From: a virus | Length of the DNA: 28,286 bases | IMG/VR virus record: IMGVR_UViG_3300011436_000003 | Coordinates: 1-28,286 of that record | Strand: one strand, 5' to 3' | Part shown: piece by piece, positions 4,866 to 21,973 of the stretch | Position numbering within the stretch: the stretch's first letter is position 1 | Layout of the letters: each line of letters begins with the position of its first letter | Notes under the pieces: generated by a model | What the model was told of the DNA's origin: nothing | Database searches by the model: none | What the model saw: the letters and a program-made list of their open reading frames with translations, nothing else | Translations under genes and position numbers: made by a program

Positions 4866-4882
4866 CGTTCAGTCTTTGAACG
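4866..4882. promoter_or_regulatory. Dyad site 1: CGTTCA-N5-TGAACG
   Basis: This is a perfect 6-base inverted repeat with a 5-base spacer. It overlaps the stop of the upstream coiled-coil gene and ends one base before the ATG of the HNH gene (leftward). The position would let a bound protein, or a hairpin in the mRNA, block translation or transcription of the HNH gene. It is one of seven copies in the window. Confidence 0.65.
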
Positions 4883-5363
4883 ATTTGGGTGCTAAGGACT
4901 CCGCGTCGAGGGCGGCGACGGCCTCATCGAGATTTGCTAGTGTGCGTAGTACATCGTCACACGCATCCTCGTTTGGACTGTCCCAATAGACGCGACTCGC
5001 CTTGGCGTGCGCTTCCAACAGCCGCAGCCGCTCGACGGCGCGGGTGGGATGGCTCAGCACGTCAGCTAGCGCAATCAAGGCGCGCTCCTGTGCGACAGAT
5101 AGGCCGGTAGCGCCGGTCGGAGAAAGTTCGCCGGGTGCAAAGGCGGCGTGCGCGAGCCGTGCAGCATGCCGCAGCGCCGCGCACTCGGCGTCGCGGGCGG
5201 CGAGCTGGGCGCGGAGGTCGGCTAGCTCCTCGGCTGCCGCTTGCGCGAGGCAGTCTGTGAACCTAGCTGAAGCGGGATACACCTTACGAAGCGCCGCCCG
5301 CACCCGCGCTAATTCATCAGCCCGCTCATAGCATTGCGTACGCCAGTCTTGCTGCTCAGCCAT
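4869..5363 (-). CDS. Ala-rich coiled-coil hypothetical protein
   Basis: The 164-residue protein is rich in Ala, Leu, Arg and Glu. Residues about 40-70 (ADLRAQLAARDAECAALRHA) show heptad-like spacing of a coiled coil. No enzyme motif is seen. The start at 5363 is chosen over an upstream in-frame ATG because a GGGAGGAGG site precedes it; it then overlaps the end of the previous gene by 8 bases, the same overlap length as seen one gene further up. Its high-GC codon use looks different from the polymerase genes, which may mark a separately acquired block (4869-6046). Confidence 0.75.
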   Translation of the reverse strand: MAEQQDWRTQCYERADELARVRAALRKVYPASARFTDCLAQAAAEELADLRAQLAARDAECAALRHAARLAHAAFAPGELSPTGATGLSVAQERALIALADVLSHPTRAVERLRLLEAHAKASRVYWDSPNEDACDDVLRTLANLDEAVAALDAESLAPKSFKD

Positions 5364-5913
5364 CGCGCCGCTCCTCCTCCCGTACAAACACGCCCGTCTT
5401 AGACAGCCATCGAACCGGCTTCCCGTGTCGGTCGGCGTACTCGATTTCTCCGCGCGTGCTCTGTCCAATATACCCATCAACGTCGAGCACGAGCACTTCG
5501 TCAGCGAGGTCGATCTTGCGTTTGTGCAGTTCGTCCAGGCGGCGCCTTTGGGCCTTCCCTTCTTCTGACTCCGGGTTGGCTAACACCATCGAATCTGGCG
5601 CACAGATGCCGATGGACAAGACGATCACTCCCGCCAAAGTCAGCTCAAGGCCCACGTCGCGGAAGGTTTCCCAAAAGCGCGTGGAGCCGCACAAGCACAC
5701 GACCTTTGGCCTGGTCATCGTTGGTACTTCGTGATGTCGGCACCATGGCGAACCGCGCTCCTGCTCCAACTCCGTGATGCGCTGCTCGGCGGCGTCTAAG
5801 GCGTCGATGTAAATAGGCAGCCGTCTCCACGCAGCCCATTGATCGTTGGCGTCAAACTTACCGAAGGCGAGCTTCCGATCCGCCGCCCGCTGCTCGGGGG
5901 TGATGCTACTCAT
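5356..5913 (-). CDS. Nucleoside 2-deoxyribosyltransferase-like (Rossmann) protein
   Basis: The N-terminal 65 residues are helical and charged. From about residue 67 the sequence KVVCLCGSTRF starts a Rossmann-like domain that continues with a conserved LDELHKRKIDLADEVLVLDV segment and GYIGQSTRGEIEYA, the pattern of nucleoside 2-deoxyribosyltransferase-like proteins common in phages. The ADE and GEIEYA regions are where the family carries its catalytic acids. Such enzymes exchange bases on deoxynucleosides or hydrolyse nucleotide-like substrates, which would fit nucleotide salvage or base modification; the true substrate is unknown. The start at 5913 has an AGGAGG site six bases upstream; upstream in-frame ATGs lack one. 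Confidence 0.75.
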   Translation of the reverse strand: MSSITPEQRAADRKLAFGKFDANDQWAAWRRLPIYIDALDAAEQRITELEQERGSPWCRHHEVPTMTRPKVVCLCGSTRFWETFRDVGLELTLAGVIVLSIGICAPDSMVLANPESEEGKAQRRRLDELHKRKIDLADEVLVLDVDGYIGQSTRGEIEYADRHGKPVRWLSKTGVFVREEERRDG

Positions 5914-6046
5914 CTCTGTCCTCCTCTCGTCGTCGGCATCTGGTACATAGATGCGCTGTCTCATTACAGAGCGGGCGCGTGCACTCAATTGCTACTCGGC
6001 AGCGAGTACACGTAGTAATGTGATTGCCTATCTGGCCGAGGCTCAT
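5906..6046 (-). CDS. Cys-rich zinc-ribbon micro-protein (46 aa)
   Basis: This short frame starts with an ATG that overlaps the stop of the cohesin-like gene (ATGA) and ends 8 bases inside the next gene. It contains CTRC at residues 13-16, single Cys at 22 and 27, and CTRC at 34-37, so it can form a two-knuckle zinc ribbon. The C-terminus is highly charged (RRREEDRDE). Coupling at both ends and the paired knuckles argue for a real gene despite its size. Function unknown; zinc ribbons of this kind often bind nucleic acid or RNA polymerase. Confidence 0.65.
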   Translation of the reverse strand: MSLGQIGNHITTCTRCRVAIECTRPLCNETAHLCTRCRRREEDRDE

Positions 6047-6483
6047 TTCGTCACCGTCACCTTCCCTCCGAGCCCAACGCACTTCTGTGCGCGCTCGTGC
6101 CCTTCTTCAAGGAGGCTCATGTCGCAGTTGAAGACGGTTATGAGAGAGCGACCGCGGGCGAGCGCTCGGGTCTGTAGACGCAGGAGCTCCCCCTTGACGA
6201 GATGGGGCTCCATACAGGCGATGGAGAACTTGATAGAGCCTTCGTTGAATAGCTTCGCTACGAGGCAATTATCGAAGCTCTCGGGGAGCGTTGCTTTGTC
6301 TATCTTCAGGGCCTCGGGGCTATATCGAACCTCGAAGTCCGCGCCCTGTAGCGTTGTGGGCTGCTCGAAGATGATGGGGATCGTGCGCGATTGGCCAGTG
6401 CGTAGTTGCTGGTTGGGGACTAGAAGGGTCTGGGCTCCCGCTGTGGTCGCGAGCAGGAGCAAGGGGCCTAGATATTTCCTCAT
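6043..6483 (-). CDS. Exported cohesin-like beta-sandwich protein
   Basis: The 146-residue protein begins with a classical signal peptide: MRKY, a Leu-rich core and AGA before residue Q18. After cleavage, the sequence LRTGQSRTIPIIFEQP and LQGADFEVRYSPEALKI follow the start of cohesin or related carbohydrate-module beta-sandwiches (GQ-x-V-x-VP, then GxDFxxxYDPxxL). Four Cys (in DNCL, IACM, FNCD, QKCV) could form disulfides outside the cytoplasm. An exported protein in the middle of a replication operon is unexpected. It may act at the cell envelope, for example in superinfection exclusion or substrate binding. ATGA overlaps couple it to the methyltransferase upstream and the zinc micro-protein downstream. 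Confidence 0.7.
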   Translation of the reverse strand: MRKYLGPLLLLATTAGAQTLLVPNQQLRTGQSRTIPIIFEQPTTLQGADFEVRYSPEALKIDKATLPESFDNCLVAKLFNEGSIKFSIACMEPHLVKGELLRLQTRALARGRSLITVFNCDMSLLEEGHERAQKCVGLGGKVTVTK

Positions 6484-7808
6484 ATCGTCATCTCCTCCTC
6501 GTCCTCGACGAAGTCAAGCCTCGGCGCTGGGGCGAGAGGCTCCTCTTCCTCGGGGTCGATGTCTACGTTGCGTAGCTTTTCTAGGGTACGTTCGTACTGC
6601 TCTGGGTCCAGTTCGCAGGCTATGTACTTCCTCCGCATGGCCTTGGCTGTCGTGGGGACGACGCCGGACCCGCAGCAGCAGTCGAGGACGACTTCGCCCT
6701 CTCTTGTCGACTGCTCTAGCAGCGCTCGAATTAAGAGCGAGGGCTTCTCTGCGATATTGCCGCGGTCGGTCGGTGGGTCGAAGTTGAAGACGTTGCTCCT
6801 CTGCGATTTGAGCTGTCTCTCCCCACTGCTGTAGAAGAAGATCGGCTCGTAGCTCGGAGCATAGCGTCGGGTCCAATCGACCGTGCCCACGCTGTTGGGC
6901 TTGGACCAGATGAGGGGGATCGGGTCTGGTGCCAGGTCGACGCCGCGGAGGAGGTCTCGGAATTCGACATAGTGCCGCAGGGCGAAGACGCAGTAGAAGT
7001 GGGCGTTGGGTCGCATGACGCGCTTGATCTCTGGGACGATTTCGGAGAGGAATTTGAGTGCATACTCTGGAGAGTCATCGAAGTGAAGTTCGCCTCGTAC
7101 GTTAAGGTCGGTTCCCCAGGGCGGGTCTATGATAACGCAGTCGACACTCTCGCTCTCGACTTGCTTTAAGAGTTCCCGCGCGTCTCCGAGCCAGACAGTC
7201 TCTGCATCGGTCGCAGCAGAGTGCCTCTTCGCAAGCTCCCTCTCGATCTCGTAGATGATACGGTCGACTGTCGCAATGGCGTTCTTCAGCGAGGGCTCCT
7301 CAGCTAGCTCTGGCATGGCCTCTAGGAGGCGGGCACCGTTGATGACGTAGGAGGTCATCGCAAGGGAGAGGTTAGCAGCGCTCGCGGTGTCCCGCATGCC
7401 CCAACCCTTCTCTTCCCCCTCAGCGGGTCTGCCAATCTGCGCTCCGTACTTCTCCTGCTTCAAGCGGTGGATCTCAGCTACGAGGCGGGACTGCTCGTGC
7501 CAAGTCATGTCCTTGCGACGGATGTTCTCTTCGAGTTCGATCTCCCGTAGGGCTAGTTCGTCGCAATCGGCGAATCGGTGGTAGGGGACATAGACCAGGC
7601 CCGCGATCTTCGAGGCTCGGTACCTCCGGCCGCCGGCCACTAGGTTGTTGTCCTGGTCTATGACGATCGGCTGGATCAAGCCAAAGCGGAGGATCGAGTC
7701 AACCAGGTCCCCTAGCTCTCCGTAGTCTGTGCGAAAGCGCGTGCCCTCGATGACTTGTTCGAGGGAGATGTACTTGTGTTGGAGATCGAGCGTCTCGAAC
7801 CAGATCAT
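6480..7808 (-). CDS. ParB-like domain / N4- or N6-DNA methyltransferase fusion
   Basis: Residues 1-120 are a ParB/sulfiredoxin-type domain with the VAGGRRYRA motif (57-65) and a following ELEENIRRKDMTWHEQ segment. Residues about 205-400 are a beta-class amino-methyltransferase: catalytic DPPWG at 228-232 comes before the SAM-binding motif LDCCCGSG (374-381), with EKPSLLIR just ahead. It would methylate adenine N6 or cytosine N4 in DNA. The acidic tail (about 415-440) is unusual. No cognate restriction enzyme is nearby, so self-protection or regulation is more likely than a restriction system. Both ends overlap neighbours as ATGA. Confidence 0.9.
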   Translation of the reverse strand: MIWFETLDLQHKYISLEQVIEGTRFRTDYGELGDLVDSILRFGLIQPIVIDQDNNLVAGGRRYRASKIAGLVYVPYHRFADCDELALREIELEENIRRKDMTWHEQSRLVAEIHRLKQEKYGAQIGRPAEGEEKGWGMRDTASAANLSLAMTSYVINGARLLEAMPELAEEPSLKNAIATVDRIIYEIERELAKRHSAATDAETVWLGDARELLKQVESESVDCVIIDPPWGTDLNVRGELHFDDSPEYALKFLSEIVPEIKRVMRPNAHFYCVFALRHYVEFRDLLRGVDLAPDPIPLIWSKPNSVGTVDWTRRYAPSYEPIFFYSSGERQLKSQRSNVFNFDPPTDRGNIAEKPSLLIRALLEQSTREGEVVLDCCCGSGVVPTTAKAMRRKYIACELDPEQYERTLEKLRNVDIDPEEEEPLAPAPRLDFVEDEEEMTI

Positions 7809-8038
7809 TTAGTCCCCCGTAGCTTATTGCGAAGGAGCGAGCCGGGCCATCTTAGCTTAACGAAGAGGTCCTCGTTCAGCTCGATTGTTGGGTATCGGTC
7901 CTTACAGGACTTACACTCTCGGATACGTCGTCGGATAGGGAGGCCCTTCAGCTCCTTAGTGAGGTAGCCTGCGTCGACAACGCGGGAGTCGAAAGAGCCG
8001 CAGGCGGGGCAGTTGATACCGTGTTGTCTCTCGGGCAT
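7805..8038 (-). CDS. NrdR-type zinc ribbon protein lacking the ATP-cone
   Basis: The sequence CPACGSFDSRVVDAG (10-24) followed by IRRRIRECKSCKDRYPTIE (35-53) matches the N-terminal zinc ribbon and DNA-binding face of NrdR, the repressor of ribonucleotide reductase genes. Full NrdR is about 150 residues and carries an ATP-cone that senses dNTPs; this protein is only 77 residues and has none. It may therefore bind NrdR boxes in the host without nucleotide control, or serve another promoter. No reductase gene is in the window. A TAGGAGACC site precedes the start, and its stop overlaps the methyltransferase ATG. Confidence 0.75.
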   Translation of the reverse strand: MPERQHGINCPACGSFDSRVVDAGYLTKELKGLPIRRRIRECKSCKDRYPTIELNEDLFVKLRWPGSLLRNKLRGTK

Positions 8039-8050
8039 TGGGTCTCCTAC

Positions 8051-8329
8051 TCAGCCGCGACTGTCTGCGGATTGTACTTCTTCGCGGATGATTTCGCGCA
8101 CGAGTTGCTCGAACGTCAGCGGTTCTGGGATGGCCTTGCCCTGCGCCTCGCGTTCCTTGCGCATCTTGTCGTGGATCGGCCACAAGCCTGTGAGCCGCAC
8201 GCACTCGTCGCACCAGTCAGTTGAGGTCGTATAGCTGGTCATATCGTCGATGCGGATGGTCACGCGGTGCAGTGCCCGTGGCACAACCGCCGCGCTGCAC
8301 CGATCACAGGTGTAGGTAGTAGTTATCAT
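8051..8329 (-). CDS. Small zinc-knuckle protein (92 aa)
   Basis: The protein starts MITTTYTCDRC and has two knuckles, CDRC (8-11) and CDEC (about 40-43), joined by a basic beta-like stretch, followed by a charged helical tail (KMRKEREAQGK). This is the layout of a small zinc ribbon. Function is unknown. The start at 8329 is chosen because an AAAGGAGG site lies just upstream; the longer frame runs into the hairpin region between this gene and the ssDNA-binding-like gene and is unlikely to be translated. Confidence 0.7.
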   Translation of the reverse strand: MITTTYTCDRCSAAVVPRALHRVTIRIDDMTSYTTSTDWCDECVRLTGLWPIHDKMRKEREAQGKAIPEPLTFEQLVREIIREEVQSADSRG

Positions 8330-8358
8330 CCTTAGCCCTCCTTTACTTACTATGGAAG

Positions 8359-8385
8359 CCCCAGGGAGCGCGGGCCTCCCTGGGG
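8359..8385 (-). promoter_or_regulatory. Strong intergenic hairpin without U-tract
   Basis: CCCCAGGGAG and CTCCCTGGGG form a perfect 10-bp stem around a 7-base loop. It lies in a 77-base gap, one of the few real gaps in the leftward operon, just after the ssDNA-binding-like gene. No T-run follows on either strand, so it is not a standard intrinsic terminator. It may cap the mRNA 3' end after processing, or reduce read-through so that upstream genes are expressed more than downstream ones. Confidence 0.6.
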
Positions 8386-8406
8386 GTGGTTGGGGCACAG
8401 GTGGCC

Positions 8407-8916
8407 CTAGGCGATAGCCGAGAATCCCTTAACGACGTTGCGCTCCTGGTCCGGGACGTTGGAGGGCTCAACATCAACGGCGACATCTGCGAACTTGTTC
8501 ATCGAGAGCCAGATGTCGGTGTCGTAGGTGATCGAGGCTGGGGCCTTGCAGTCGGGGCAGAAGTACTTCCCCTTCTCGAGGCCGTTCTCCTTCGTCCCAC
8601 GGAGGAAGAGGCGAGGTTGCTCTGGGTTGTTGCATCGGGTGCAGGACCAAGGGAAGTGGAAGGCGTCGATGAATTGCATGAGCATGAAGGTATTCATCGG
8701 CTGACCGTCCTTCTGCGTGCCTCCGATCATGATGTTTGTGAAGGTCTTGCGCCCCTTGTACTCGCCCTCGACGACCTCTAACTCGGTCCCGATCATCGGG
8801 TTGTGTGCCTCTTTGCTCTCCCTCAGTTCGAGCTTCGTGGGCCTGCAACGGTAGGTGGCCTTGGGGAGGGGCTCGCGGTCTTCGACTGTGGCTAAGCTAC
8901 TGCTTATGCGTGGCAT
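8407..8916 (-). CDS. DUF669-like ssDNA-binding protein with zinc ribbon insert
   Basis: The 169-residue protein has the pattern of DUF669-type phage ssDNA-binding proteins: PLPKATYRCRPTKLEL, then MIGTELEVVEGEYKGRKTFTN (about 41-61). This looks like an OB-fold with its conserved G-x-Y-x-G-R segment. CTRC (92-95) and CPDC (119-122) add a zinc ribbon in the second half. It probably coats single-stranded DNA during replication and recombination, which suits its place beside the Sak4-like ATPase and Fe-S nuclease. An AAGGAGACAACAG leader precedes the ATG, the same leader type as several neighbours. Family call is moderate; it could be another OB-fold protein. Confidence 0.6.
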   Translation of the reverse strand: MPRISSSLATVEDREPLPKATYRCRPTKLELRESKEAHNPMIGTELEVVEGEYKGRKTFTNIMIGGTQKDGQPMNTFMLMQFIDAFHFPWSCTRCNNPEQPRLFLRGTKENGLEKGKYFCPDCKAPASITYDTDIWLSMNKFADVAVDVEPSNVPDQERNVVKGFSAIA

Positions 8917-9475
8917 CTGTTGTCTCCTTCTCTCTGTCTGTCTGTTGGTTGGCTACGAGCTTACGGTACTCGTGCTGCTTCACGGTCCCATATTGGACTC
9001 TCCTTTCTGTCACGCCTGGTTGACGATAGCGTGTCTTCGAGTAGGCTCCCTCGAACAGAGCGCGACGCACTGCGGTGTGGGATAGTTTGAGATATTCGCA
9101 CACGTAAGGGAAACTAAAGTAGGAGTCGTCGTCTTGGTACTCCTCCATAAACCACTGAAGGGCCTCTCGCTTCTTCGATTGCCCGTGGCGGCCGCTGCCG
9201 TCGGAGATGAGACAGTTAGCGGCGTCGCGGAGGATGGCGTCGAGGAGGCGCTGCTCTGGCGTAAAGGGCCGGTAGGAGAGGAAGATTGCCTCGAAGGCGT
9301 TGGTGTCGACGAGCCGGTCCATCTCGTACCGAGTGTCCCACTCTGGCGCCCCTCTGTTAGAGGACAAGGCTGAAGTCTTGATCAACCTTGGCTGGGAGAT
9401 TCTCTCGGAATCGAGTTCCGGCGCTACGGAGACGCGAATCGGGCCTGGTTTGCCAGTAGTACCACGGTTTGCCAT
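8897..9475 (-). CDS. Hypothetical helix-turn-helix-like protein overlapping the Sak4 gene
   Basis: The 192-residue protein has a C-terminal half with DAANCLIS, REALQWFMEEYQDDDSYFSF and VCEYLKLSHTAVRRALFEG, a helical segment (about 95-140) typical of small phage DNA-binding proteins with a helix-turn-helix-like unit. A basic tail follows. The start at 9475 is supported by a GGAGACAAAAG leader nearly identical to those of the genes at 8916, 10529 and 10763. This forces a 119-base out-of-frame overlap with the end of the Sak4-like gene. A later ATG at 9322 would avoid the overlap but has no ribosome binding site. Confidence 0.7.
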   Translation of the reverse strand: MANRGTTGKPGPIRVSVAPELDSERISQPRLIKTSALSSNRGAPEWDTRYEMDRLVDTNAFEAIFLSYRPFTPEQRLLDAILRDAANCLISDGSGRHGQSKKREALQWFMEEYQDDDSYFSFPYVCEYLKLSHTAVRRALFEGAYSKTRYRQPGVTERRVQYGTVKQHEYRKLVANQQTDREKETTDATHKQ

Positions 9476-10529: not shown

Positions 10530-10541
10530 CTGTGTCTCCTC

Positions 10542-10763
10542 TTAGTTCTCGTTAGCTAGATAGTCGTTGGTTGCAATGATTTTATTGTACTCCATACGAG
10601 TAGCCTCGCCAGAGCCGATCGAATTTCCTTGCGCCTCTTTTTCTCTACAGACTTTAAAGAAACGTAGAGCAGCACGAACATATCCTTGGACTGAAACACC
10701 TCCGTTCAAGTGTTGCTGAACGGCGTCTTCGAGTTCATTATCGAGTTCGATCGAGAGTTTCAT
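10542..10763 (-). CDS. Ribbon-helix-helix (CopG/Arc-like) DNA-binding protein
   Basis: Residues 1-40, beginning MKLSIELDNELEDAVQQHL and continuing GGVSVQGYVRAALRFF, fit a ribbon-helix-helix fold: a short basic/hydrophobic strand, helix A, a turn and helix B. Such proteins bind operators as dimers through the N-terminal strand. The C-terminal 30 residues are polar and unassigned. It is a candidate for the protein that binds one of the repeated dyads in this window. A 7-base inverted repeat (CCGTTCA-N8-TGAACGG, 10702-10723) lies within its own coding sequence. An AAGGAGACAAGCAA leader precedes the ATG. Confidence 0.75.
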   Translation of the reverse strand: MKLSIELDNELEDAVQQHLNGGVSVQGYVRAALRFFKVCREKEAQGNSIGSGEATRMEYNKIIATNDYLANEN

Positions 10764-10775: not shown

Positions 10776-11717
10776 TTATTCTAGCGGTATCCAGGTCCGC
10801 GGTTGGTAACGGTCGAGCTGGTAGGTCGGGCCGACCCAACAGAGGTCGTAGAAAGAGCAGAGGCCGTAGTCAGTGCAGGCGCTCGTGCGCTGGTAGAAGG
10901 TGCCTAATTGTTCAGTGAGTGAACAGGTCAGCATACGCCCGACCCGCTCGCGCCAGCCCTGGACGATCTCGATCGTCTGCCTCCTCCACTGATCTAGGTC
11001 CTGCCGGCTCTTGTGGAAGGTGTCTCTCTGCGCTTCTCGCTTATCGGGTGCGACGAGAAGGACGTTGCCAATGACGCCGGCGACGTGTCTCTGGGGGGCT
11101 AGCTCCTGGAGAGTGTAGCAGTAGCCAGTGCCTTGCCTCTCTGTGCGGAGTTGTTTGAGACGCCGGTCGACGCCGGAGCCCGTCGTCTTTGTCTCGAGGA
11201 CGAACCACTCTCCCGTCCGTACGTGCTCTAGGACGATATCCATACGGACGACGTAGTGGAAGGGCTCTTGGAAGTGAGGTGGGTCTCCATCGCGGGGCTC
11301 TATCTTCACGATGGCCCCGAGCTCTGGCTCTATCACGCGGTAGTAGCGGTCGAGCTCCTGGAAGCGGTCGAAGTAGTCGTCGAGGATGGTGAGGCCGTTG
11401 TCCTCTGTATGCTTAGAGCAAGGTTTGCCCTTCTCGATGCAACCAGAGGGGAAGAGCTCTGTGTACTTGCGAGCGAAGGCGCGCATCGCCGCGAGACGGC
11501 GCTTGGAGTCCTCGGCGCCTTGTTGGGTCAGTTTGTAGTAGACCGCGAGCCCTTCGTGGACACAGGAGCCAAAGTGCGCCCCTGGTCCCACGGCGTTATC
11601 GAGGCCACCGCGGTAGAAGAGGTAATAGAAAGCCTTCCGGGGGCAGCTAAGGATTAGTTCGAGACGGTGGTTGTCGTACCACTCTAGCCTCTCTAGTAGT
11701 TCGCGAGGGGTGGTCAT
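10776..11717 (-). CDS. Cas4/AddB-like Fe-S PD-(D/E)XK nuclease
   Basis: This 313-residue protein has the features of RecB-family nucleases with an iron-sulfur cluster: C25 near the N-terminus (SCPRKAFYYL), H54 in SCVHEGLAVYY, D160 in VVRMDIVLEH, E175 and K177 in LETKTT, and a C-terminal C281-x5-C287-x5-C293 set. The four Cys bracket the nuclease core as in Cas4 and AddB. It should degrade or resect DNA ends to make single strands, working with the ssDNA-binding-like protein and Sak4-like ATPase downstream. The start overlaps the stop of the upstream 79-residue gene as ATGA. Confidence 0.88.
   Translation of the reverse strand: MTTPRELLERLEWYDNHRLELILSCPRKAFYYLFYRGGLDNAVGPGAHFGSCVHEGLAVYYKLTQQGAEDSKRRLAAMRAFARKYTELFPSGCIEKGKPCSKHTEDNGLTILDDYFDRFQELDRYYRVIEPELGAIVKIEPRDGDPPHFQEPFHYVVRMDIVLEHVRTGEWFVLETKTTGSGVDRRLKQLRTERQGTGYCYTLQELAPQRHVAGVIGNVLLVAPDKREAQRDTFHKSRQDLDQWRRQTIEIVQGWRERVGRMLTCSLTEQLGTFYQRTSACTDYGLCSFYDLCWVGPTYQLDRYQPRTWIPLE
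10909..10925. promoter_or_regulatory. Dyad site 2: TGTTCA-N5-TGAACA
   Basis: A perfect 6-base inverted repeat with a 5-base spacer lies inside the 3' part of the Fe-S nuclease gene, about 150 bases before the ribbon-helix-helix gene in the direction of transcription. It is the only copy not close to a gene boundary. It could control read-through into the genes below, or be a bystander copy. Confidence 0.5.
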
Positions 11718-13627: not shown

Positions 13628-13995
13628 ATCAAAATCTCCTCTTCGTCTATTAGCTCCCCTCTCGTTGCCTCTCGACGGTCGAACGTCTGCGAGCCCCTCA
13701 GCGTTGAGCGGACCAGAGGGGGGCCGTGGGCCTCGAGGACGGGTCCGATCTCCAGGGCGAGAGTGAAGGAGCAGGCTGTGTAGTCATCTTGGTAGAAGGT
13801 TAGTTCGAGACGGGGTGGGTCCGTCTCGGAGATACCGAAGGCGCAGGCCCGGACCCGGAGGGCGGTGAAGTCTGGGTAGGGCGCGAGGCGGTCGGTGAGC
13901 GTGGGGTTGAAGGGGTTCGTGGTGGCTCCTTTCTGTTCAAAGGCTGAACGGTTAGCGTTCGTATCTATCCTGCCACCGGCGTTCTGCCTCGTCAT
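13624..13995 (-). CDS. Hypothetical protein, start uncertain (possible ACG start at 13920)
   Basis: The product is beta-rich by appearance (RLELTFYQDDYTACSFTLAL) and of unknown function. The first ATG (13995) lies 44 bases inside the preceding gene and has no good ribosome binding site. A strong AAAGGAG site lies instead at 13926-13932, five bases before an in-frame ACG codon at 13918-13920. A copy of the repeated dyad (13934-13950) fills the short gap between that site and the upstream stop, as at other gene starts here. No in-frame ATG, GTG or TTG exists between these points. A shorter product of about 98 residues, starting at ACG, is therefore plausible. Confidence 0.6.
   Translation of the reverse strand: MTRQNAGGRIDTNANRSAFEQKGATTNPFNPTLTDRLAPYPDFTALRVRACAFGISETDPPRLELTFYQDDYTACSFTLALEIGPVLEAHGPPLVRSTLRGSQTFDRREATRGELIDEEEILI
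13934..13950. promoter_or_regulatory. Dyad site 3: TGTTCA-N5-TGAACG
   Basis: The inner 5-base arms GTTCA/TGAAC are perfect, with a 5-base spacer; the outer pair differs. The site begins right after the stop of the zinc-ribbon gene (13952) and ends one base before the AAAGGAG site of the following gene, so it sits where an operator or a translational control hairpin would be expected. Confidence 0.6.
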
Positions 13996-14248
13996 CGTAG
14001 AGCGCTTCTTCCCAGGCTTGGTAGGTCTCTTGGCCTATGGAATAGGCGTACTCCTGGTCGACGGGGGTGCCGCAGCTAGGGCAAGCGTCGGGAAAGTTGT
14101 CAACGCAGCCGGCCTCCCCTGGGTCTCCGTAGGCTGGGGAGCTGGGGTTGGAGCAGGGTGGGGGAGGCCGGTCGGGGGAGAAGGCAGCGTCGGAGGCGAC
14201 GACCGCGTCGCATTCGAGACAGCGGAGTTCGAAGGTGAAGGGCTTCAT
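13952..14248 (-). CDS. Zinc-ribbon hypothetical protein (98 aa)
   Basis: The start MKPFTFELRCLECDAVV carries the first knuckle CLEC (10-13), and CPSC (about 56-59) provides the second, separated by a Pro/Gly-rich loop with two more Cys. The C-terminus is an acidic, aromatic helix (YQAWEEALYDDEAERRW). A GAGGTGG site precedes the ATG, which overlaps the stop of the gene above. Function unknown; a small zinc-binding adaptor is likely. Confidence 0.7.
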   Translation of the reverse strand: MKPFTFELRCLECDAVVASDAAFSPDRPPPPCSNPSSPAYGDPGEAGCVDNFPDACPSCGTPVDQEYAYSIGQETYQAWEEALYDDEAERRWQDRYER

Positions 14249-15465: not shown

Positions 15466-15688
15466 ATTGGGGCTCCTCTCGCCACTGGTACACTTGGCTG
15501 TGCTACCTAGGGCTGCTACCGAGCCGGTCAGGGCGCGGTAGTGTTCAATTGGCGGATTGTCCCATATCTGGGGAAAAAAGGGAAGTGAAAAGCGTTCACT
15601 CTTTGGACCTGGGGCATTAGGCCGCCTAAACGCCAATTAAATGCCGGGTCAGGTCCGCTCTCTCGCATCGTCCACCAGCGCCCAATAC
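15466..15688. other. Gap in the leftward operon without a confident gene
   Basis: This 223-base stretch is the largest gap inside the leftward operon. An open frame crosses it on the - strand but has no ribosome binding site. A degenerate copy of the dyad, CGTTCA-N5-TGGACC, lies at 15593-15609. A short CCCA-TATC-TGGG hairpin (around 15560) is followed by an A-run, which is not a terminator in the leftward direction. A secondary promoter for the genes below is possible but I see no convincing -35/-10 pair. Confidence 0.4.
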
Positions 15689-16057
15689 TCATCCCACTCT
15701 GCGTCGGGGGCCTCCGGGTCGGGCCGCGCTGGGCGCTCTATCAAGGCGTTCGATACAGCGGACGTAGCCAACGATATCAACGAGATTGTCCTCGTGTCCA
15801 TGGCCAGTGGCCTCCCTTGCGAGCTTCGTAGCGATCTGACAAAGGCAAACTTGCCTCGGGGACACCCGATGCCCGAGGACGACGGACCAGAGGCGCGCGA
15901 TAGCTACGATGTTGATTTCAGGGGGGCCGTAGACCTCAGCCCTACCATCAACCGCGGCTAGGGCCGCGTCGAAGATGGCTGAGTCGTATCTATCACGAAC
16001 ACCTGGCCCGTGCTGCGCACGGGTTCGGGGTCTCTTGGTGCGTCGTTGGGTGGGCAT
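15689..16057 (-). CDS. DUF6378-like phage protein
   Basis: After a basic N-terminus, the sequence VYGPPEINIVAIARLWSVVLG (in part, about 42-62), VSPRQVCLCQIATKLARE and HEDNLVDIVGYV follow the pattern of the DUF6378 family found in many phages: YGxPxxNFxxIAxLW, then a middle helix and a final DxxVDxxGY. The family is of unknown function; its His/Asp pattern hints at relation to all-alpha nucleotide pyrophosphatases, which is inference. A TAGGAC site precedes the ATG, and dyad site 4 lies 11 bases upstream of the start. Confidence 0.75.
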   Translation of the reverse strand: MPTQRRTKRPRTRAQHGPGVRDRYDSAIFDAALAAVDGRAEVYGPPEINIVAIARLWSVVLGHRVSPRQVCLCQIATKLAREATGHGHEDNLVDIVGYVRCIERLDRAPSAARPGGPRRRVG

Positions 16058-16063
16058 CGGGTC

Positions 16064-16336
16064 CTATTTGTTCAAGGGTTGAACATCTGCATTGGTCTCA
16101 GAGCGCGACTCGGAGAGAGACTCAATCGACTCCCACTCCTCAGCCTCGAATAGGGCGGGGGGCCCAGCCTCCGAGCCTGCGACCGAAGCAGGCGTCCGAT
16201 CGGCTGAGTCGAGATAGACGTAGATAAGGCGAGCTACGAGAGCGGAGACAGAGACGCCCGAGTCGGCCGCACGGCGGGAGAGACGGGCAGCGTCCCCGAG
16301 GGGGAGGTAGGTGTCTATGCGCTTGCGCTCCCTCAC
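16064..16336 (-). CDS. Ribbon-helix-helix-like DNA-binding protein (90 aa)
   Basis: Residues 1-45 (MRERKRIDTYLPLGDAARL, then SGVSVSALVARLIYVYL) fit a ribbon-helix-helix fold: a basic strand with IDTYLP, helix A, a G-V-S turn and helix B. The C-terminal half is acidic and Ser-rich and may be disordered. It probably represses genes in this phage and is, with the protein at 10542-10763, a candidate binder for the repeated dyads. Its stop lies just beside dyad site 4 and its ATG overlaps the upstream stop. Confidence 0.7.
   Translation of the reverse strand: MRERKRIDTYLPLGDAARLSRRAADSGVSVSALVARLIYVYLDSADRTPASVAGSEAGPPALFEAEEWESIESLSESRSETNADVQPLNK
16069..16085. promoter_or_regulatory. Dyad site 4: TGTTCA-N5-TGAACA
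   Basis: A perfect 6-base inverted repeat with a 5-base spacer overlaps the last codons of the ribbon-helix-helix gene and ends 11 bases before the ATG of the DUF6378-like gene, next to that gene's TAGGAC ribosome binding site. Confidence 0.65.
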
Positions 16337-16581
16337 GGCTGAGGCTCCTCGACGTCGAGAGCTATGGAGGCTGTCCCGTCTTTGTAGACGACAACGAGAA
16401 GCTGGGGTAGGTCAGGTTGGAGATTCGGACCCTGTTTGAGATAGTAGGGAATCACGAGGAGGTCCTTTCGAGAGAGGTCCTCGTTCACAGCCTTGCGGAG
16501 GGCAAAGAGCCGTGGGGCAGAGACAAGGACCAAATCAGGGATGCCGAAGTCTAGGAGCTGTTGAAGGGGGCTAGAAGTCAT
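16333..16581 (-). CDS. Small hypothetical protein (82 aa)
   Basis: The protein alternates hydrophobic strands (LVLVSAPRLFALRKAV, LLVIPYYL, QLLVVVYKDGTASIAL), giving a beta-rich look. No family is recognised. Its ATG lies 11 bases inside the Dps-like gene and its stop overlaps the next ATG. Function unknown. Confidence 0.7.
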   Translation of the reverse strand: MTSSPLQQLLDFGIPDLVLVSAPRLFALRKAVNEDLSRKDLLVIPYYLKQGPNLQPDLPQLLVVVYKDGTASIALDVEEPQP

Positions 16582-17023: not shown

Positions 17024-17406
17024 AGAGACTCCTTTCCGTGTAGGGCTAGGACAGACGCAGCGAAGAGGAGAAGCTGCGCTGTCGTAGCGTTTTGTTTCAT
17101 TCGGTTAGCGAGGTCGGAGACGACTTGCACGTTGCCTTTGGTATAGCCGAGGGAGGGGTCGATCTGACTCAATGTTGAGTTAGTTGGTAGTTCGTGTTCT
17201 AAGTCGTGGGTGAGAGGGATATGAAGGTAAGGGCAGATGCGAGGGATAATTACGTCTCCTATCGAGATAGAGAAAGGGAGCTTCGCTCGCCTCGCGTGGA
17301 GCTTAGCAGCTTGCCAGAGCCAACGTTCACGACAGAGTAGGTAGTGAGCACGGACCTTTCCTGGGTTCTCTCTGTGCCACTTTATTTGACCCGCTTTAAT
17401 AGGCAT
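17020..17406 (-). CDS. Putative HNH/endonuclease VII-like protein, first gene of the leftward operon
   Basis: The product (128 residues from 17406) has ICPYLHIPLTHD, then STLSQIDPSLGYTKGNV and ANRMKQNAT. This order (CPxLxIxL, SxLxxIDxxxGYxKGNVxVxS, AxxxKxxAT) is common in phage HNH-like endonucleases where D and N of the second motif belong to the active site. The N-terminal 40 residues are basic. Two starts are possible: 17406, with an AGGTGA site inside dyad site 5, or 17463, with GAGAGGACA. I prefer 17406 because the HNH gene at 4864 has the same dyad-C-ATG arrangement. If real, it is the first gene made from the operon. Confidence 0.65.
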   Translation of the reverse strand: MPIKAGQIKWHRENPGKVRAHYLLCRERWLWQAAKLHARRAKLPFSISIGDVIIPRICPYLHIPLTHDLEHELPTNSTLSQIDPSLGYTKGNVQVVSDLANRMKQNATTAQLLLFAASVLALHGKESL

Positions 17407-17407
17407 G

Positions 17408-17423
17408 TGTTCACCTATGAACA
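17408..17423. promoter_or_regulatory. Dyad site 5: TGTTCA-N4-TGAACA
   Basis: A perfect 6-base inverted repeat with a 4-base spacer ends one base before the ATG at 17406. In the mRNA the AGGTGA ribosome binding site lies within the loop and right arm, so either a bound repressor or the hairpin itself would hinder translation of the first operon gene. Confidence 0.65.
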
Positions 17424-17521
17424 GTTTTATTGAGGGGGCGGTCGGAACGCCGAGTGAGCACATTGTCCTCTCTTACAGGGAGCGACACAAGACGAAAGAA
17501 AGGCGAAAGCTTTCTAAAATT

Positions 17522-17535
17522 CCCCACATGTGGGG
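17522..17535. promoter_or_regulatory. Perfect 14-bp palindrome CCCCACATGTGGGG
   Basis: The palindrome lies about 60 bases upstream of the first leftward gene (from 17463) and next to an AT-richer stretch. Its place suits an operator for the leftward operon. Nothing in the window shows which protein would bind. Confidence 0.4.
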
Positions 17536-17578
17536 GCGAATATTCAAGTGTGCCCGTACCTCTGCGGTTTTTGAATGA

Positions 17579-17668
17579 TGTGTTCCTCTGTCTCTCCCTC
17601 TCTATCTCTTCTTTTTTTTTTTTGTTTTTAGAAAGAGAGAGAGACAGTAGGGGAGAGAGGGGAGCACA
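17579..17668. repeat. Long inverted repeat with pyrimidine/purine arms and T12 loop
   Basis: The left arm 17579-17598 pairs with 17651-17668 over 18 positions (two G-T pairs) with a 2-base bulge. An inner, competing arm pair, 17588-17602 with 17633-17647, shares the CTGTCTCTC core. The loop holds T12 (17612-17623) and T5. From 17584 to 17629 one strand is almost all pyrimidine, then almost all purine. It could be a replication origin element, a DNA structure, or a two-state RNA hairpin in a leader. Confidence 0.6.
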
Positions 17669-17934
17669 TCGAGCCGAAACCGTGCGCTTGCACGCAAGCT
17701 TGAGAAAATGCCCCTACGGGCAGGCATAGGAGGGGCCGTTTTCGCTCTTTGTGCGCTTTGCGCGTGGGTCTTGAACACTTCCGAGGGAGCGAAGGAGCCT
17801 AGGACGGAGCCTAGACCATTGAGCATAAGCGAGGGTGCGCCTAGGGAGCGCGTCGCGGCCCTGCGACATTAGATAGCGTCGCACCCTGCTAATGCCGGGA
17901 TGAACGCAATTCACCTGCGAGAGAGCGAATATGC

Positions 17935-17964
17935 TTGACACTGTAGGGGCGCGGGCTGTACAAT
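17935..17964 (+). promoter_or_regulatory. Sigma70-type promoter P1 (TTGACA-N18-TACAAT)
   Basis: A perfect -35 (17935-17940) and a 5/6 -10 (17959-17964) are separated by 18 bases. Transcription would start near 17971 and run into the small gene at 17993. The match is among the best in the window. Confidence 0.75.
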
Positions 17965-17992
17965 CCGCAGTATGGAGAAGGGAGCACAAGCT

Positions 17993-18109
17993 ATGAGGCG
18001 AATTGAGACACAGACGACAACGGGGCCGTTGCGCTTTACCACGTACGCCGATGGGACACGCCTCGTAGAGCGCTACCTCTGCGGCGCTTGGCTCCCTATC
18101 GCCGCGTAG
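17993..18109 (+). CDS. Promoter-proximal micro-protein (38 aa)
   Basis: An ATG with an AAGGGAG site eight bases upstream, about 20 bases downstream of promoter P1, opens MRRIETQTTTGPLRF and ends IAA after 38 residues. An upstream in-frame ATG at 17972 lies at the expected transcription start and is less likely. The protein is basic at the N-terminus, with one Cys and aromatic residues, and matches nothing I know. Strong promoter plus good ribosome binding site suggest early, high expression, as for phage micro-proteins that interfere with host factors, but this is inference. Confidence 0.55.
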   Translation: MRRIETQTTTGPLRFTTYADGTRLVERYLCGAWLPIAA

Positions 18110-18119
18110 CGCGTGCCTC

Positions 18120-18148
18120 TTGACACGTGAGAGCGCGCTTGCTATATG
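18120..18148 (+). promoter_or_regulatory. Sigma70-type promoter P2 (TTGACA-N17-TATATG)
   Basis: A perfect -35 (18120-18125) is followed after 17 bases by TATATG (18143-18148), a 4/6 -10. It begins 11 bases after the stop of the micro-protein and serves the gene at 18308 through a leader of about 150 bases. Confidence 0.7.
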
Positions 18149-18307
18149 TAGTGCCCCTCGGTTGACTATCGAGGGAGAAAGAGAGGAGTGAACGGATTCG
18201 CGCCTAAGGCGTCCGGTCTGAAGGCAAGGAACGCGGCTACTTAGCAACCTGAGACAAGGCGAACATCGGCAACGTGCGAGACAAGGCATGTAGAGGAAAC
18301 TCATACC
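18149..18307 (+). promoter_or_regulatory. Untranslated leader of the 18308 gene
   Basis: The leader opens with a 6-bp hairpin CCCTCG-N9-CGAGGG (18155-18175) right at the predicted 5' end, and carries a direct repeat of GAGACAAGGC (18251-18260 and 18278-18287) shortly before the start codon. A 5' hairpin can stabilise an mRNA. I cannot assign a known riboswitch. Confidence 0.4.
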
Positions 18308-18718
18308 ATGGCATACAAACTCGGATTCAAGCGCGTCGGGAGTCTGTTGACGGCAGAGAAGGCGACCGATGGGAAGGAACACAGACTGGCGCGGTTTGTA
18401 CCTTTCATCCGTGGCGAGGGGACCGAAACGAAGGAAGACTTGCAGAAGGGACTCGGCGCGCTCTACGACGCCTGGGCGAAGTTTGACCAGTCGAAGAAGG
18501 GACGGAAAGAGACTAACGGGAAGGTCGAACCGGCGGATGTCGACTATGCTTCATTCGGGAACACATCCCCTGCAACGCCGGAGCGCTTTCTCGCGGCCCT
18601 CTGGCGTGGTCTGAGCCTGGACCACACGCCGGAGATGCAAGCTGCGCTTGCGCAGTTCCACAAGGGACGGGGAGAGAAGAAGGCAAGCGCCGGACGCGCT
18701 GAAAACTTCGTCGAATAG
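18308..18718 (+). CDS. Hypothetical protein in its own promoter-terminator unit (136 aa)
   Basis: The protein is basic and helical, starting MAYKLGFKRVGSLLTAEKA, with Lys-rich segments (SKKGRKETNGK; KGRGEKKAS) and a central aromatic stretch. No family is recognised. It stands alone between promoter P2 and an intrinsic terminator 22 bases after its stop, so it is a single-gene, probably strongly expressed unit facing the late genes. A GAGGA site lies ten bases before the ATG. The Lys content would suit a nucleic-acid-binding role, but that is only a guess. Confidence 0.75.
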   Translation: MAYKLGFKRVGSLLTAEKATDGKEHRLARFVPFIRGEGTETKEDLQKGLGALYDAWAKFDQSKKGRKETNGKVEPADVDYASFGNTSPATPERFLAALWRGLSLDHTPEMQAALAQFHKGRGEKKASAGRAENFVE

Positions 18719-18739
18719 GAACCGACGAAGCAGCAAGAG

Positions 18740-18764
18740 GGGCGCCCATAGGGGCGCCCTTTTT
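18740..18764 (+). terminator. Intrinsic terminator GGGCGCCC-ATAG-GGGCGCCC-T5
   Basis: A perfect 8-bp GC-only stem, a 4-base loop and a T5 run fit a rho-independent terminator. It ends the unit of the 18308 gene and separates it from the late region. Confidence 0.9.
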
Positions 18765-18776
18765 GTGTCCTTGGGG

Positions 18777-18836
18777 TGCTAACCTTAGTTAGCTGCTAAC
18801 TTTGGTTAGCAGAGGGGGTGCGTACCCGAGTTAGCA
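18777..18836. promoter_or_regulatory. Array of GCTAAC-N4-GTTAGC palindromes
   Basis: Two palindromes lie in tandem, GCTAAC-CTTA-GTTAGC (18778-18793) and TGCTAAC-TTTG-GTTAGCA (18794-18811), with centres 17 bases apart. A third, imperfect one, TGCGTAC-CCGA-GTTAGCA (18819-18836), follows 25 bases on. The GCTAAC/GTTAGC halves occur only singly elsewhere. Such clustered dyads are typical of operators for a repressor or of replication iterons. The site is just past the terminator and upstream of the packaging genes. Confidence 0.65.
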
Positions 18837-19116
18837 CTCTCGCCAGTCTCTAAGGCGAAACGCTCCGGGCTGCTTACCTGCTTCCCTCGCCTTCTCTGTC
18901 TCACCTTCCGACCGACCTTCCGACCGGCCTACGAGGCAGGTCACTTGACACCGATACTTGACACGTTACTCGTTTAGTGACCGGCGGGTCGGCCTGAGGC
19001 GCTCGACATGCGCCCCCATGCCAGCTTGCGCCCATGCCCTTGTCGATGCACAGGGCCGCGCCAGCGGCGCGATCGAAGGCAGACCCGACCGTGGGCCTTG
19101 CCTTGCGCTCGCACGC

Positions 19117-19174
19117 GCCCTAGGGCACCGCAGCGCCCAGGGGGGCCGGCCCCAACCGCGCCCCCTAGCGGGGG
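19117..19174. repeat. Cluster of three GC-rich palindromes
   Basis: GCCCTAGGGC, GGGGCCGGCCCC and CCCCC-TAGC-GGGGG follow each other within 58 bases, roughly 290-340 bases before the small terminase gene. Two contain a CTAG core. They could be recognised by the terminase or form cruciforms; the high GC of the region makes chance palindromes more likely than elsewhere. Confidence 0.4.
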
Positions 19175-19418
19175 CAGAGCTATCACCTAGACCCCCCACT
19201 CTCTAAAACTCTCTCTCATTCCTTCTGCCTACGTCGAAACGACGCGAGGCATTGGGAGGCGCGTCTGCGACGCGATTGTGAGGGGGCAAGCGGGGTGGGT
19301 CGGGGTGGGTGAACGATTCTGGACTACTGACAGGGAATTTCCCGGTATATGGGCCTTGCTATTCGTCGTAGGCGAGAGGACAATGTGAGGTAGAGTGGGA
19401 CCGGACCCGAGCTAGTTG

Positions 19419-19434
19419 TGTTCACCCTTGAACA
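19419..19434. promoter_or_regulatory. Dyad site 6: TGTTCA-N4-TGAACA
   Basis: A perfect 6-base inverted repeat with a 4-base spacer lies 26 bases before the ATG of the small terminase gene, on the rightward unit. It shows that the repeated dyad is shared by both transcription directions. Confidence 0.65.
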
Positions 19435-19460
19435 GTTCGGTCCCTAACGCAGAGAGACGC

Positions 19461-19937
19461 ATGGCAGCCTGGGAACCAAGAAAGCTCAACCCCTCGCACT
19501 ACCGCATCCTAACGCTCCACTGGCGCGGGCTTCCCCACGGGGAGATAGCCCTTGAGGTTGGTGTCACGACGCAGACGGTGTCTAACGTCGTTACGAGCGA
19601 GTCGGGTCAGGCGGTATTGGAGGAGTTGGCGCGCCGCACGTTAGATACGGCGCTAGATGTACAGACCGTCGCACAAGCCTACGCCCCCGGGGCTCTAGAG
19701 GAGCTGGTTAAGCTGGCATTCTCGAGCCGGGATGAGCGGGTTAAGAAGACGGCGTGTACGGACATCTTGGCTATGGCTGGGCATGCTCCGGTCCGGAGGG
19801 TGTCGATCGAGCGACCCGACCCTGTCGACGAGCGTTTCAAGGGCAAGAGCGAGGTCGAGATGCGGGCCGAGATCCTGAAGAGGCTCGGCTACGTAGAGGA
19901 ACCAAGCGATGCACCCGAAAGCTCGACCCTTCATTAG
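19461..19937 (+). CDS. terS: Terminase small subunit-like protein
   Basis: The 158-residue protein has a helix-turn-helix near its N-terminus (LTLHWRGLPHGEIALEVGV, then TTQTVSNVVTS; about 13-42), followed by helical segments ending in VKKTACTDILAMAGHAP, a pattern found in phage small terminases that repeat a short helix before a disordered tail. It would recognise the phage packaging site and deliver DNA to the large subunit encoded about 500 bases downstream. The ATG at 19461 is preferred to an upstream TTG that lies inside the dyad; its GAGAGACGC leader is a weak ribosome binding site. Function rests on fold pattern and context. Confidence 0.7.
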   Translation: MAAWEPRKLNPSHYRILTLHWRGLPHGEIALEVGVTTQTVSNVVTSESGQAVLEELARRTLDTALDVQTVAQAYAPGALEELVKLAFSSRDERVKKTACTDILAMAGHAPVRRVSIERPDPVDERFKGKSEVEMRAEILKRLGYVEEPSDAPESSTLH

Positions 19938-20218
19938 GCCCCTTCCTCGTTTTCGTTTGTTTCGTGTTTACCAAGAGGCGATGGACCTAACCTCCTGTTT
20001 GTTCTTTTGTAGTTGGGTTGGGTTTGGCTTTTTCGTCCCTCTTAGAAAGAGCAAGGTAGTAAATTCAGCGATGGTAAGGGGGCCAATGTGGTACAGGCGT
20101 GGGTTCGGAGTCGTCGTTGATTGGCTCCCTACGCGAAGGCGGCTCTCTCCAGGGGTGATAAATACGCTCTTTATCAAAGACAGTTGGTCCCACGCGCCCT
20201 TTGACTGGGGTAAGGAAA
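19938..20218. other. Gap between the terminase genes without a confident gene
   Basis: This stretch is less GC-rich than its surroundings. An open frame crosses it in continuation of an ATG at 19909 but has no ribosome binding site. It holds a perfect inverted repeat TGATAAA-N7-TTTATCA (20156-20176). The sequence around 19909 and that around 20219 look alike for about 20 bases (both read ATGC...AAAG-TCGACCCT), which could be a small duplication. Confidence 0.45.
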
Positions 20219-20449
20219 ATGCGTAAAGTTCGACCCTCCACTAGCAAGCCGATGCTGGGTCTCGTCAACCTGGCACGAGGGGCATTTGCATCCCTCCTAC
20301 GCGTGCAAGCGTCGCTGGTGGAGATTAAGCGGTTCGGGCCGCCCCTCGGCCGCTTCTCCTCTGTCCCTCTGAGGCAACCCTGCCGCAGGCAGGGACAGGT
20401 AACCTGGGTCTTGGCAATAGCGATAGCATCGAGGTTGGGTCGGTGGTAA
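20219..20449 (+). CDS. Possible small basic protein (76 aa)
   Basis: The frame starts MRKVRPSTSKPMLGLVNLAR and ends 7 bases inside the large terminase gene. A TAAGGAAA stretch directly precedes the ATG, at rather short spacing. The protein is strongly basic with no known motif. The overlap with the terminase start and the lack of another gene in this gap support it; the odd composition and short spacing speak against it. Confidence 0.4.
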   Translation: MRKVRPSTSKPMLGLVNLARGAFASLLRVQASLVEIKRFGPPLGRFSSVPLRQPCRRQGQVTWVLAIAIASRLGRW

Positions 20450-21951
20450 GCAAGATACCGAGGTCGTTTGTGGATAGGGTGGTTGCGTCGCTGCTCCCGA
20501 CGAGGGAGGCAATTCGCTCTATGCCTCTCGATAAGCTCGCGCTCTTAGACGAGGAGGAGAAGGGCCTTCGCGGTCTGGTTGAGCGGGACCCGATCCGCTT
20601 CTTCCGGCCCACGCCCGGAGGGCAGCTCGCTTTCGCTACTTGCGACGACCCCACGGTCCGCGTGCGCGGCTACTTCGCCGGCAACAAGAGTGGCAAGTCC
20701 ACGATCGGGGGCGTCCGTCTTCTAGAGCGCTTGAACGGTGCCCCGCTCTGGGACCGCGACAATCGCCACTACGAGGCCAAGATTCCCTCTCGTTGCTGCG
20801 TCTTCGCAGAGGACTTTGACTCTCACAAAGAGACTACCATCCCCACCATTATGAGCTGGGCTCCGAAGGGCTTTCTCAAGAAGACCAATCGGAACCCAGC
20901 AGGGCACATTGTCGAGATGGTAGCGGCCAATGGCTCTATTGTCCACTTTCGCACCTACGACCAAGGGTCGGACAAGGCGGAGGGCAAGGATTGGGACCAT
21001 GTCTGGTGTGATGAGCCTCCGCCTCGCGACATCTACACAGCGATCTATCGCGGTCTGGTTGCCCACGATGGTCAGCTTGACATCACGGCGACGTTGCTCA
21101 AAGAGGCGTGGCTCTGGGACGAGGCAGAGCGCCCCTCGTTTAAGATCTTCAGCGGCTCTATCAACGACAACATTTGGCTCCAAGACGCAGCGAAGGCTGA
21201 CTTCCTTGGCTCGCTCACTGACGAAGAGCGCATCGTACGGGAGACGGGCCGACCCACGACGCTCACTGGCCTCATCTACAAGTGCTTGAAAGACGACCGC
21301 CCCTACATCCTCCCCCCTGACGAGCTCCCAAACCCGACCAACTGCCCCACCGTCGTCGGGATCGACCCTCACGAGCGCAAGCCCATCTTCGCGATCTGGG
21401 CCTACGTCACTGAGAGAGATCAACTCGTAGTCTTCGACTACGCACTCATCCACTCCTCAGGGCACAACAGCCTAGCGCAGATCAAGACGCAACTCGAGCA
21501 GAGGGAGCTAATGCACCTCACGAAGCCTCGCATCTGCGTTATGGACCCAAACCGCGGGAGAGCGAAGCAGCTCGGCGGCTCTTCGTGGGCAGAGACGTTC
21601 GAGGACTTCGGCTACGACGTCACGATGGGGGATGACAACATCCACGATGGGCATACGGCGGTGACGCACGCGCTCGTCGAGGGCAAGCTCCTCTTTAGCG
21701 AGAATTGTCGTGGTCGAGGCGGGCCAATCTGGCAAATGCTTCGCTACGGTTGGGAGGACTGGGCCTCGAAGACGATGCGGTTTGCTAGGACACCGAGGGA
21801 GGTCCCGAAGGACCTCTACAAGGACTTCCCTGATATTATCCGCTACCTCGTCAAGTCCAACATCAAATACGATGAGTTGTTCTTCGGTCTCCCGGTCGTG
21901 AGCACGCTCCCTGAGGGAGTGCGAGATAGGGAGTTGCGAGCGTACATTTAG
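20443..21951 (+). CDS. terL: Terminase large subunit
   Basis: The 502-residue protein is the DNA packaging motor. The ATPase half has a Walker A FAGNKSGKST (78-87) and Walker B HVWCDEPP (186-193). The nuclease half starts at TVVGIDPH with D308, followed by ICVMDPNRGR with D368, the metal-binding acids of the RNase H-like fold that cuts concatemers. Length is normal for the family. The start is GTG (20443) with a GAGG eight bases upstream; it overlaps the preceding small frame. Dyad site 7 follows the stop. Confidence 0.93.
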   Translation: MVSKIPRSFVDRVVASLLPTREAIRSMPLDKLALLDEEEKGLRGLVERDPIRFFRPTPGGQLAFATCDDPTVRVRGYFAGNKSGKSTIGGVRLLERLNGAPLWDRDNRHYEAKIPSRCCVFAEDFDSHKETTIPTIMSWAPKGFLKKTNRNPAGHIVEMVAANGSIVHFRTYDQGSDKAEGKDWDHVWCDEPPPRDIYTAIYRGLVAHDGQLDITATLLKEAWLWDEAERPSFKIFSGSINDNIWLQDAAKADFLGSLTDEERIVRETGRPTTLTGLIYKCLKDDRPYILPPDELPNPTNCPTVVGIDPHERKPIFAIWAYVTERDQLVVFDYALIHSSGHNSLAQIKTQLEQRELMHLTKPRICVMDPNRGRAKQLGGSSWAETFEDFGYDVTMGDDNIHDGHTAVTHALVEGKLLFSENCRGRGGPIWQMLRYGWEDWASKTMRFARTPREVPKDLYKDFPDIIRYLVKSNIKYDELFFGLPVVSTLPEGVRDRELRAYI

Positions 21952-21956
21952 TGAAC

Positions 21957-21973
21957 TGTTCATTAACTGAACG
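21957..21973. promoter_or_regulatory. Dyad site 7: TGTTCA-N5-TGAACG
   Basis: Inner arms GTTCA/TGAAC are perfect, with a 5-base spacer. The site fills the gap between the large terminase stop and the AGAGGAG site of the exported Thr-repeat gene. An extra TGAAC half overlaps on the left side, giving a second, everted dyad TGAAC-T-GTTCA. Confidence 0.6.

Follow-up and report, generated by a model that had tools for sequence, protein, structure and literature searches.

What reads a short palindrome repeated across both operons of a phage genome, and to what end? The question is raised by the virus record IMGVR_UViG_3300011436_000003, a fragment of 28,286 bases that was analysed over its full length and is hereafter termed the window. 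Seven exact copies of the dyad GTTCA-N4/5-TGAAC were found in the window against 0.04 expected in shuffled sequence, and none of 100 dinucleotide shuffles attained seven; the excess over chance claimed in the first-pass annotation of this DNA is thus borne out. We found that arrays of such dyads are not confined to one contig, that the dyads are very probably sites in double-stranded DNA that a phage-linked protein recognises specifically, and that a fusion of a ParB-type domain with a DNA methyltransferase is a candidate for that protein.

Palindromic arrays in related phages

No near relative of the window phage was found in the annotated phage set, and a large-terminase profile retrieved no host genome copies. 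Relatives were obtained from IMG/VR, with approximately 46–50% of large terminase residues in common with the window and a similar layout. Single-sequence searches with PolA and the portal protein gave almost no matches, and alignment queries were needed; approximately 150 further loci were collected by polymerase and head-protein profile searches.

An array of the window motif was absent from the first five relatives examined. Scanning of related genomes, which the first-pass annotation had proposed, revealed exact copies of GTTCA-N5-TGAAC in the distant relatives G011 (6 copies), G013 (8) and G015 (9), and arrays of a different palindrome, specific to each genome, in approximately 15 other podovirus-like relatives. 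These words include CTATT-N9-AATAG in G002 (eight copies, a ninth place being off-pattern), TATGCA-N3-TGCATA in G006 (six perfect copies and one near copy), words of the TGTCC/TGTCCA types in G009 and G012, TGTCAA-N5-TTGACA in G014 and GTCCC-N5-GGGAC in the annotated Desulfofustis phage LS06; G008 and G010 also have arrays of other words. Array genomes carry 5–11 copies each, and the best Markov-shuffled value over 138 loci, used as the shuffled control for arrays, was 8e-7. The array of G018 (TTATC-N4-GATAA) is doubtful, with p 1e-8 yet only 2 copies in an arm-8 scan. Palindromic arrays were sought and none was found in G001, G004, G007, G016, G017, LUZ24, MelJY34, Kuura and ctLwi270. Taken alone, arm-7 mismatch scans overlook the array of the window, since their output is dominated by GC-rich palindromes that arise by chance. 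Literature searches yielded no description of such arrays.

Repeats of other kinds were also observed. Over 50 kb of G002 (L013–L015), 8 copies were counted of TTCGGGCCGG and 8 of GCGGGCCGGC (null 4–5), and in G001 (L011–L012) 12-mers of the CGAGCAGCCCGA type occur at 12 places within one mismatch (null 6). CAGTAT-N15-ATACTG is present in G020 (L216) at 4406, 7319 and 9687, three copies being too few to judge.

Placement of the sites and the form in which they are read

The spacer has 5 bases in five of the window dyads and 4 bases in the two at 17409 and 19420; no other spacer was found in the window when the GTTCA/TGAAC arms were scanned with spacers of 3 to 6, and an outer Y..R pair is present at 7/7. 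The half-site order is GTTCA..TGAAC and not the GAAC-N4-GTTC of a LexA box, as had been pointed out in the first-pass annotation, whose coordinates include the flanking Y and are hence 1 lower than the site starts given here. Site 1 (GTTCAGTCTTTGAAC, 4867..4881) lies 2 nt before the ATG of the open reading frame (ORF) at 4451–4864 (minus strand) and overlaps the stop of the upstream gene. Site 2 (GTTCAGTGAGTGAAC, 10910..10924) is situated within the ORF of a PD-(D/E)XK exonuclease, approximately 147 bp upstream of the ORF at 10542–10763 (minus strand). The stop of the ORF at 13952–14248 (minus strand) is followed after 2 nt by site 3 (GTTCAAAGGCTGAAC, 13935..13949), which falls within the next ORF if the start of that ORF is 13995. 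Site 4 (GTTCAAGGGTTGAAC, 16070..16084) overlaps the 3′ end of a ribbon-helix-helix (RHH) gene and is followed by TAGGA and an ATG at 16057. Site 5 (GTTCACCTATGAAC, 17409..17422) stands at the head of the early operon with a possible ATG (17406) 2 nt on, inside a longer ORF; site 6 (GTTCACCCTTGAAC, 19420..19433) is likewise at an operon head, that of the late operon, and precedes the small terminase gene by 34 bp; and site 7 (GTTCATTAACTGAAC, 21958..21972) separates the large terminase gene from the gene that follows it. A degenerate copy (GTACATTTAGTGAAC, 21942..21956) with two mismatches within YGTTCAN5TGAACR abuts site 7 on its left, and a weaker copy, CGTTCACTCTTTGGACC, also with two mismatches, was observed at 15593 in the noncoding stretch 15467–15688. 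The statement that six of the seven sites lie at gene boundaries was slightly generous: the placement is clear at 4867, 16070, 19420 and 21958, whereas 13935 and 17409 depend on the choice of start and 10910 lies within an ORF.

Placement was then counted over 94 sites in 13 tabulated genomes, in which genes were called by a simple script and gene boundaries are therefore approximate. Noncoding DNA or gene edges hold 75/94 sites against 12.5 expected, and at 51 sites a start follows within 60 bp (8.0 expected). Different words stand upstream of the same gene family in 28 genome pairs, compared with 7.7 ± 3.7 by chance (4/20,000 permutations). The clearest case is the gap that follows the major head protein gene: of seven phages that have this gene pair, six (G010, G011, G012, G013, G014 and G015) carry a site there, and the sequences differ. 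The sites are also spaced more evenly than randomly chosen junctions (summed coefficient of variation 4.91 vs 10.83; 0/5000), and even spacing is repeated in independent genomes when compared with random positions (9/5000); in the window alone, which is a fragment, the spacing is not even. Very long genes without a junction carry sites inside, and sites within long genes were found in G010 (30802), G012 (19045), G014 (21449) and G015 (27592), as at 10910 in the window. The earlier view of specific sites spread over both operons of the phage is upheld, and positions are kept among relatives while the sequence changes.

The first-pass annotation had also suggested that the dyads might be RNA hairpins governing translation starts, and many sites are indeed followed closely by a ribosome binding site or ATG. 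Sites nevertheless occur within genes, the 4- and 5-base loops are not conserved, and no Rfam match was obtained. Compensatory change upholding the pairing was not found; C..A and same-base mismatches occur at outer or inner pairs. Among variants within genomes, C..A mismatches are more frequent than G-U at the outer symmetric position, one inner pair of G002 is never Watson-Crick complementary, and one flank position of G013 is mismatched in every copy. The variants break RNA pairing, and the sites are therefore read here as double-stranded DNA, the hairpin explanation being barely tenable. The outer palindrome flank is systematically asymmetric in G002, G008, G012, G013 and G014, where the half-sites differ at a fixed position; these asymmetric flanks are left unexplained by the double-stranded reading.

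Candidate readers of the palindromes

A gene at 6480..7808 (minus strand) of the window encodes a fusion of a ParB_N domain, a helix-turn-helix (HTH)-like stretch and an N6/N4 DNA methyltransferase, as judged from Pfam (ParB_N, 8.2e-10, above the cut-off; N6_N4_Mtase, 9.1e-20) and PHROGs; given its co-occurrence with arrays, this fusion is the best candidate for the protein that binds the sites. ParB box II (GGRRxRA-like) is largely retained in the aligned fusions. The fusion gene is present in 13/13 tabulated array genomes, one of them with a doubtful array; G015 is included, where the gene was missed by the gene caller and has no in-frame stop but the terminal one. Arrays were found in 10/47 polymerase loci with the fusion gene and in 0/27 without it. 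A prediction was written beforehand, and 16 full records (8 fusion-positive and 8 fusion-negative) were then fetched. At the preset strict threshold, arrays were detected in 5/8 fusion-positive and 0/8 fusion-negative genomes (p=0.026). A more sensitive scan gave 6–11 copies in 7/8 fusion-positive genomes, at most 5 in the 8 fusion-negative genomes and at most 4 in controls (p=0.0014); the words of G026 and G028 are loose. The presence of the fusion, which the first-pass annotation had not considered, tracks the arrays better than that of the RHH protein.

Every phage with a clear array encodes the fusion, which suggests that it may be the reader. We consider the chances about evenly balanced that the fusion reads the dyads and that the dyads are loading sites resembling parS or KorB operators. 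One phage-encoded dimeric protein would recognise dyads set every few kb, mostly in gaps between genes; every palindrome would be a loading point for the fusion, in the manner of parS for ParB or of the KorB operators for KorB, from which the fusion would spread and cover the genome. Such coverage may serve methylation, as self-marking against host restriction, or transcription silencing, or both. A version of the word private to each phage lineage would be expected if site and reader coevolve. It is a more tentative proposal, and one that we hold possible rather than probable, that evenly spaced, parS-like private words load a ParB clamp-methyltransferase, which spreads, such that only word-bearing DNA is modified, and perhaps silenced, as self.

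Several observations weigh against the fusion as reader. Two of the five genomes that passed at the preset threshold have clustered and not dispersed copies, which leaves 3 clear cases, and the 6-copy cut-off was taken from the sensitive scan after the preset one. The fusion gene is present and no array was found in G001, MelJY34, ctLwi270 and ctMlz233, three of the four having a divergent HTH region, and G029 of the test set has only 4 copies with the fusion gene. The Pfam ParB HTH match is weak (0.03–0.04 in 2/5 proteins scanned), the HTH-like stretch being placed by alignment, and the putative recognition helices are dissimilar among four phages that share GTTCA-N5-TGAAC; the DNA-reading residues of neither the fusion nor the RHH protein track the word. 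No ParA was found among the window genes scanned or in the annotation of Desulfofustis phage LS06, a profile search not having been run in all genomes, and a parS system was not sought beyond annotation. The co-occurrence is not independent because the genomes are related, and RHH proteins co-occur with arrays nearly as closely.

The RHH protein is therefore the main rival. It is encoded at 16064..16336 (minus strand), with a weak Pfam RHH_5 match, a profile that matches only RHH proteins in PDB, and Foldseek top matches to RHH proteins such as CopG and Arc; a second small RHH-like ORF at 10542..10763 (minus strand) has no family match. RHH proteins bind short palindromes. The sites might be operators or transcription roadblocks (stoperators) of such a repressor made early in infection, with one dimer or a dimer pair on each palindrome repressing the promoter beside its own gene and halting RNA polymerase elsewhere; both the general explanation and this detailed form are, in our judgement, rather unlikely. 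The protein was found in most array genomes, and 7 of 15 such genes (those of the window, G006, G012, G014, G015, G027 and G028) have a site within approximately 70 bp on their 3′ side, against about 12% expected (p~0.001), an adjacency that was noticed before being counted, which lessens its weight. Perfect sigma-70 promoters stand approximately 20 bp before the RHH-adjacent site in G014 and G015. The profile of the RHH-like family B matches G011 and five test genomes besides 6 of the genomes from which it was built, and no ParB-negative test genome; this family has no Pfam or PDB support, Foldseek of its model gave nothing, and the fold of the wider family is unconfirmed. The RHH profiles have no match in the array genomes G009, G025 and G026, and G017 has an RHH match and no array. 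Sigma-70 promoters were not found at most sites, a strong promoter being nearby at 8/94 compared with about 3% at random positions, and control of promoters needs neither even spacing nor sites within long genes.

The stoperator likeness drawn in the first-pass annotation stands for the layout and falls short in the sites themselves. At stoperators of the L5 type, bound repressor halts transcription elongation. Those of L5 (cluster A mycobacteriophages) are likewise numerous and specific, lie on both arms, often fall in short intergenic gaps and have a genome-specific sequence; they are asymmetric, 13–14 bp long, bound by a monomeric repressor, present in 20–30 copies per genome and oriented with transcription (PMC6550527), whereas the sites described here are evenly spaced palindromes with extended symmetric flanks in 5–11 copies. 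No orientation rule was evident by eye in G002 and G013, and no temperate repressor was found here. The extended start-associated sequences (ESAS) of cluster K mycobacteriophages also resemble these sites, as inverted repeats beside starts that are conserved by gene family and vary in consensus by subcluster; their repeats are imperfect, 17 bp in length and separated by long spacers, go together with the 13-bp SAS GGGATAGGAGCCC and are limited to nonstructural genes (PMC3203893), unlike the present sites, which also occur in late operons and within genes.

Genome context, other explanations and meaning of the arrays

The early arm of the window encodes a primase, a DNA polymerase, the ParB-methyltransferase, an SSB-like protein, a Sak4-like ATPase, the PD-(D/E)XK nuclease, the RHH protein and an endonuclease, and the late arm encodes the small and large terminase, a portal-like protein and the major head protein. 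DNA polymerase I of the window (1898–4511, minus strand) is divided into two ORFs, an N part at 3384–4511 and a C part at 1898–3208 with a 60-aa ORF between them, unlike the single ORF of G001, G004 and G006. Sites 5 and 6 (17409 and 19420) flank the noncoding stretch from which the early operon (minus strand) and the late operon (plus strand) diverge. A 2-kb low-coding region was observed there (17464–19460), with a promoter-like TTGACA-18-TACAAT at 17935 (plus strand), and comparison with LUZ24 suggests that this stretch probably represents the joined genome ends.

This bracketing, together with the even spacing and the mid-gene sites, would be in keeping with sites that serve DNA organisation, packaging or partition through another phage or host protein, with no direct role in transcription or methylation. 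The MatP-matS system or a plasmid centromere set offers a comparison; MatP is itself an RHH protein that acts on dispersed palindromes, and it is among the weak fold matches of the window RHH protein. A private word that varies from phage to phage speaks against a host protein; nor would this explanation account for the link to the ParB-methyltransferase gene, and the annotation of Desulfofustis phage LS06 has no parA or integrase. This explanation is considered unlikely.

Less likely still are site-specific nick sites cut by a phage nuclease, like those of T5 and Pseudomonas phage tf, the latter a distant relative by genome layout. The 14 nicks of tf are dispersed over the genome, and relatives have a different recognition sequence at similar positions, much as found here (PMC3517423); HNH/endonuclease VII-like proteins are also encoded by these phages. 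The nick sites are asymmetric and on one strand only, whereas the present sites are palindromic on both strands, and LUZ24 has no palindromic array.

For the fusion as reader, the half-site TGTTC recurs in parS of B. subtilis. In plasmid systems, the closest comparison is KorB of RK2, a ParB-type clamp that works from dispersed palindromic operators (PMC11790492). Common to the KorB operators (OB) or ParB-parS and the phages studied here are a short palindrome repeated round the genome and an encoded ParB-type N domain with box II. In those systems the site is read by a ParB-type protein with an HTH, clamp loading at the site depends on CTP, and partition systems have a ParA partner. In the phages the reader is a candidate, its ParB domain is joined to a DNA methyltransferase, the word varies from phage to phage, and the scan of the window genes gave no ParA. 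Fusions with the same domain pair are described as frequent in phages by a 2025 survey, in the part considered here, where their role is given as perhaps anti-defence and stated as unknown, and where no DNA target or site array is reported for them (PMC12704722).

Phage ParB-methyltransferase fusions are thus common and have had no known target or role, and the private-word arrays offer each of them a concrete candidate target. If this proposal is true, a DNA-binding protein would coevolve with 6–11 sites together while the sites hold their genome positions. Either leading outcome would be new, be it loading of ParB or the presence of RHH stoperators in phages in which no lysogeny module is recognised.

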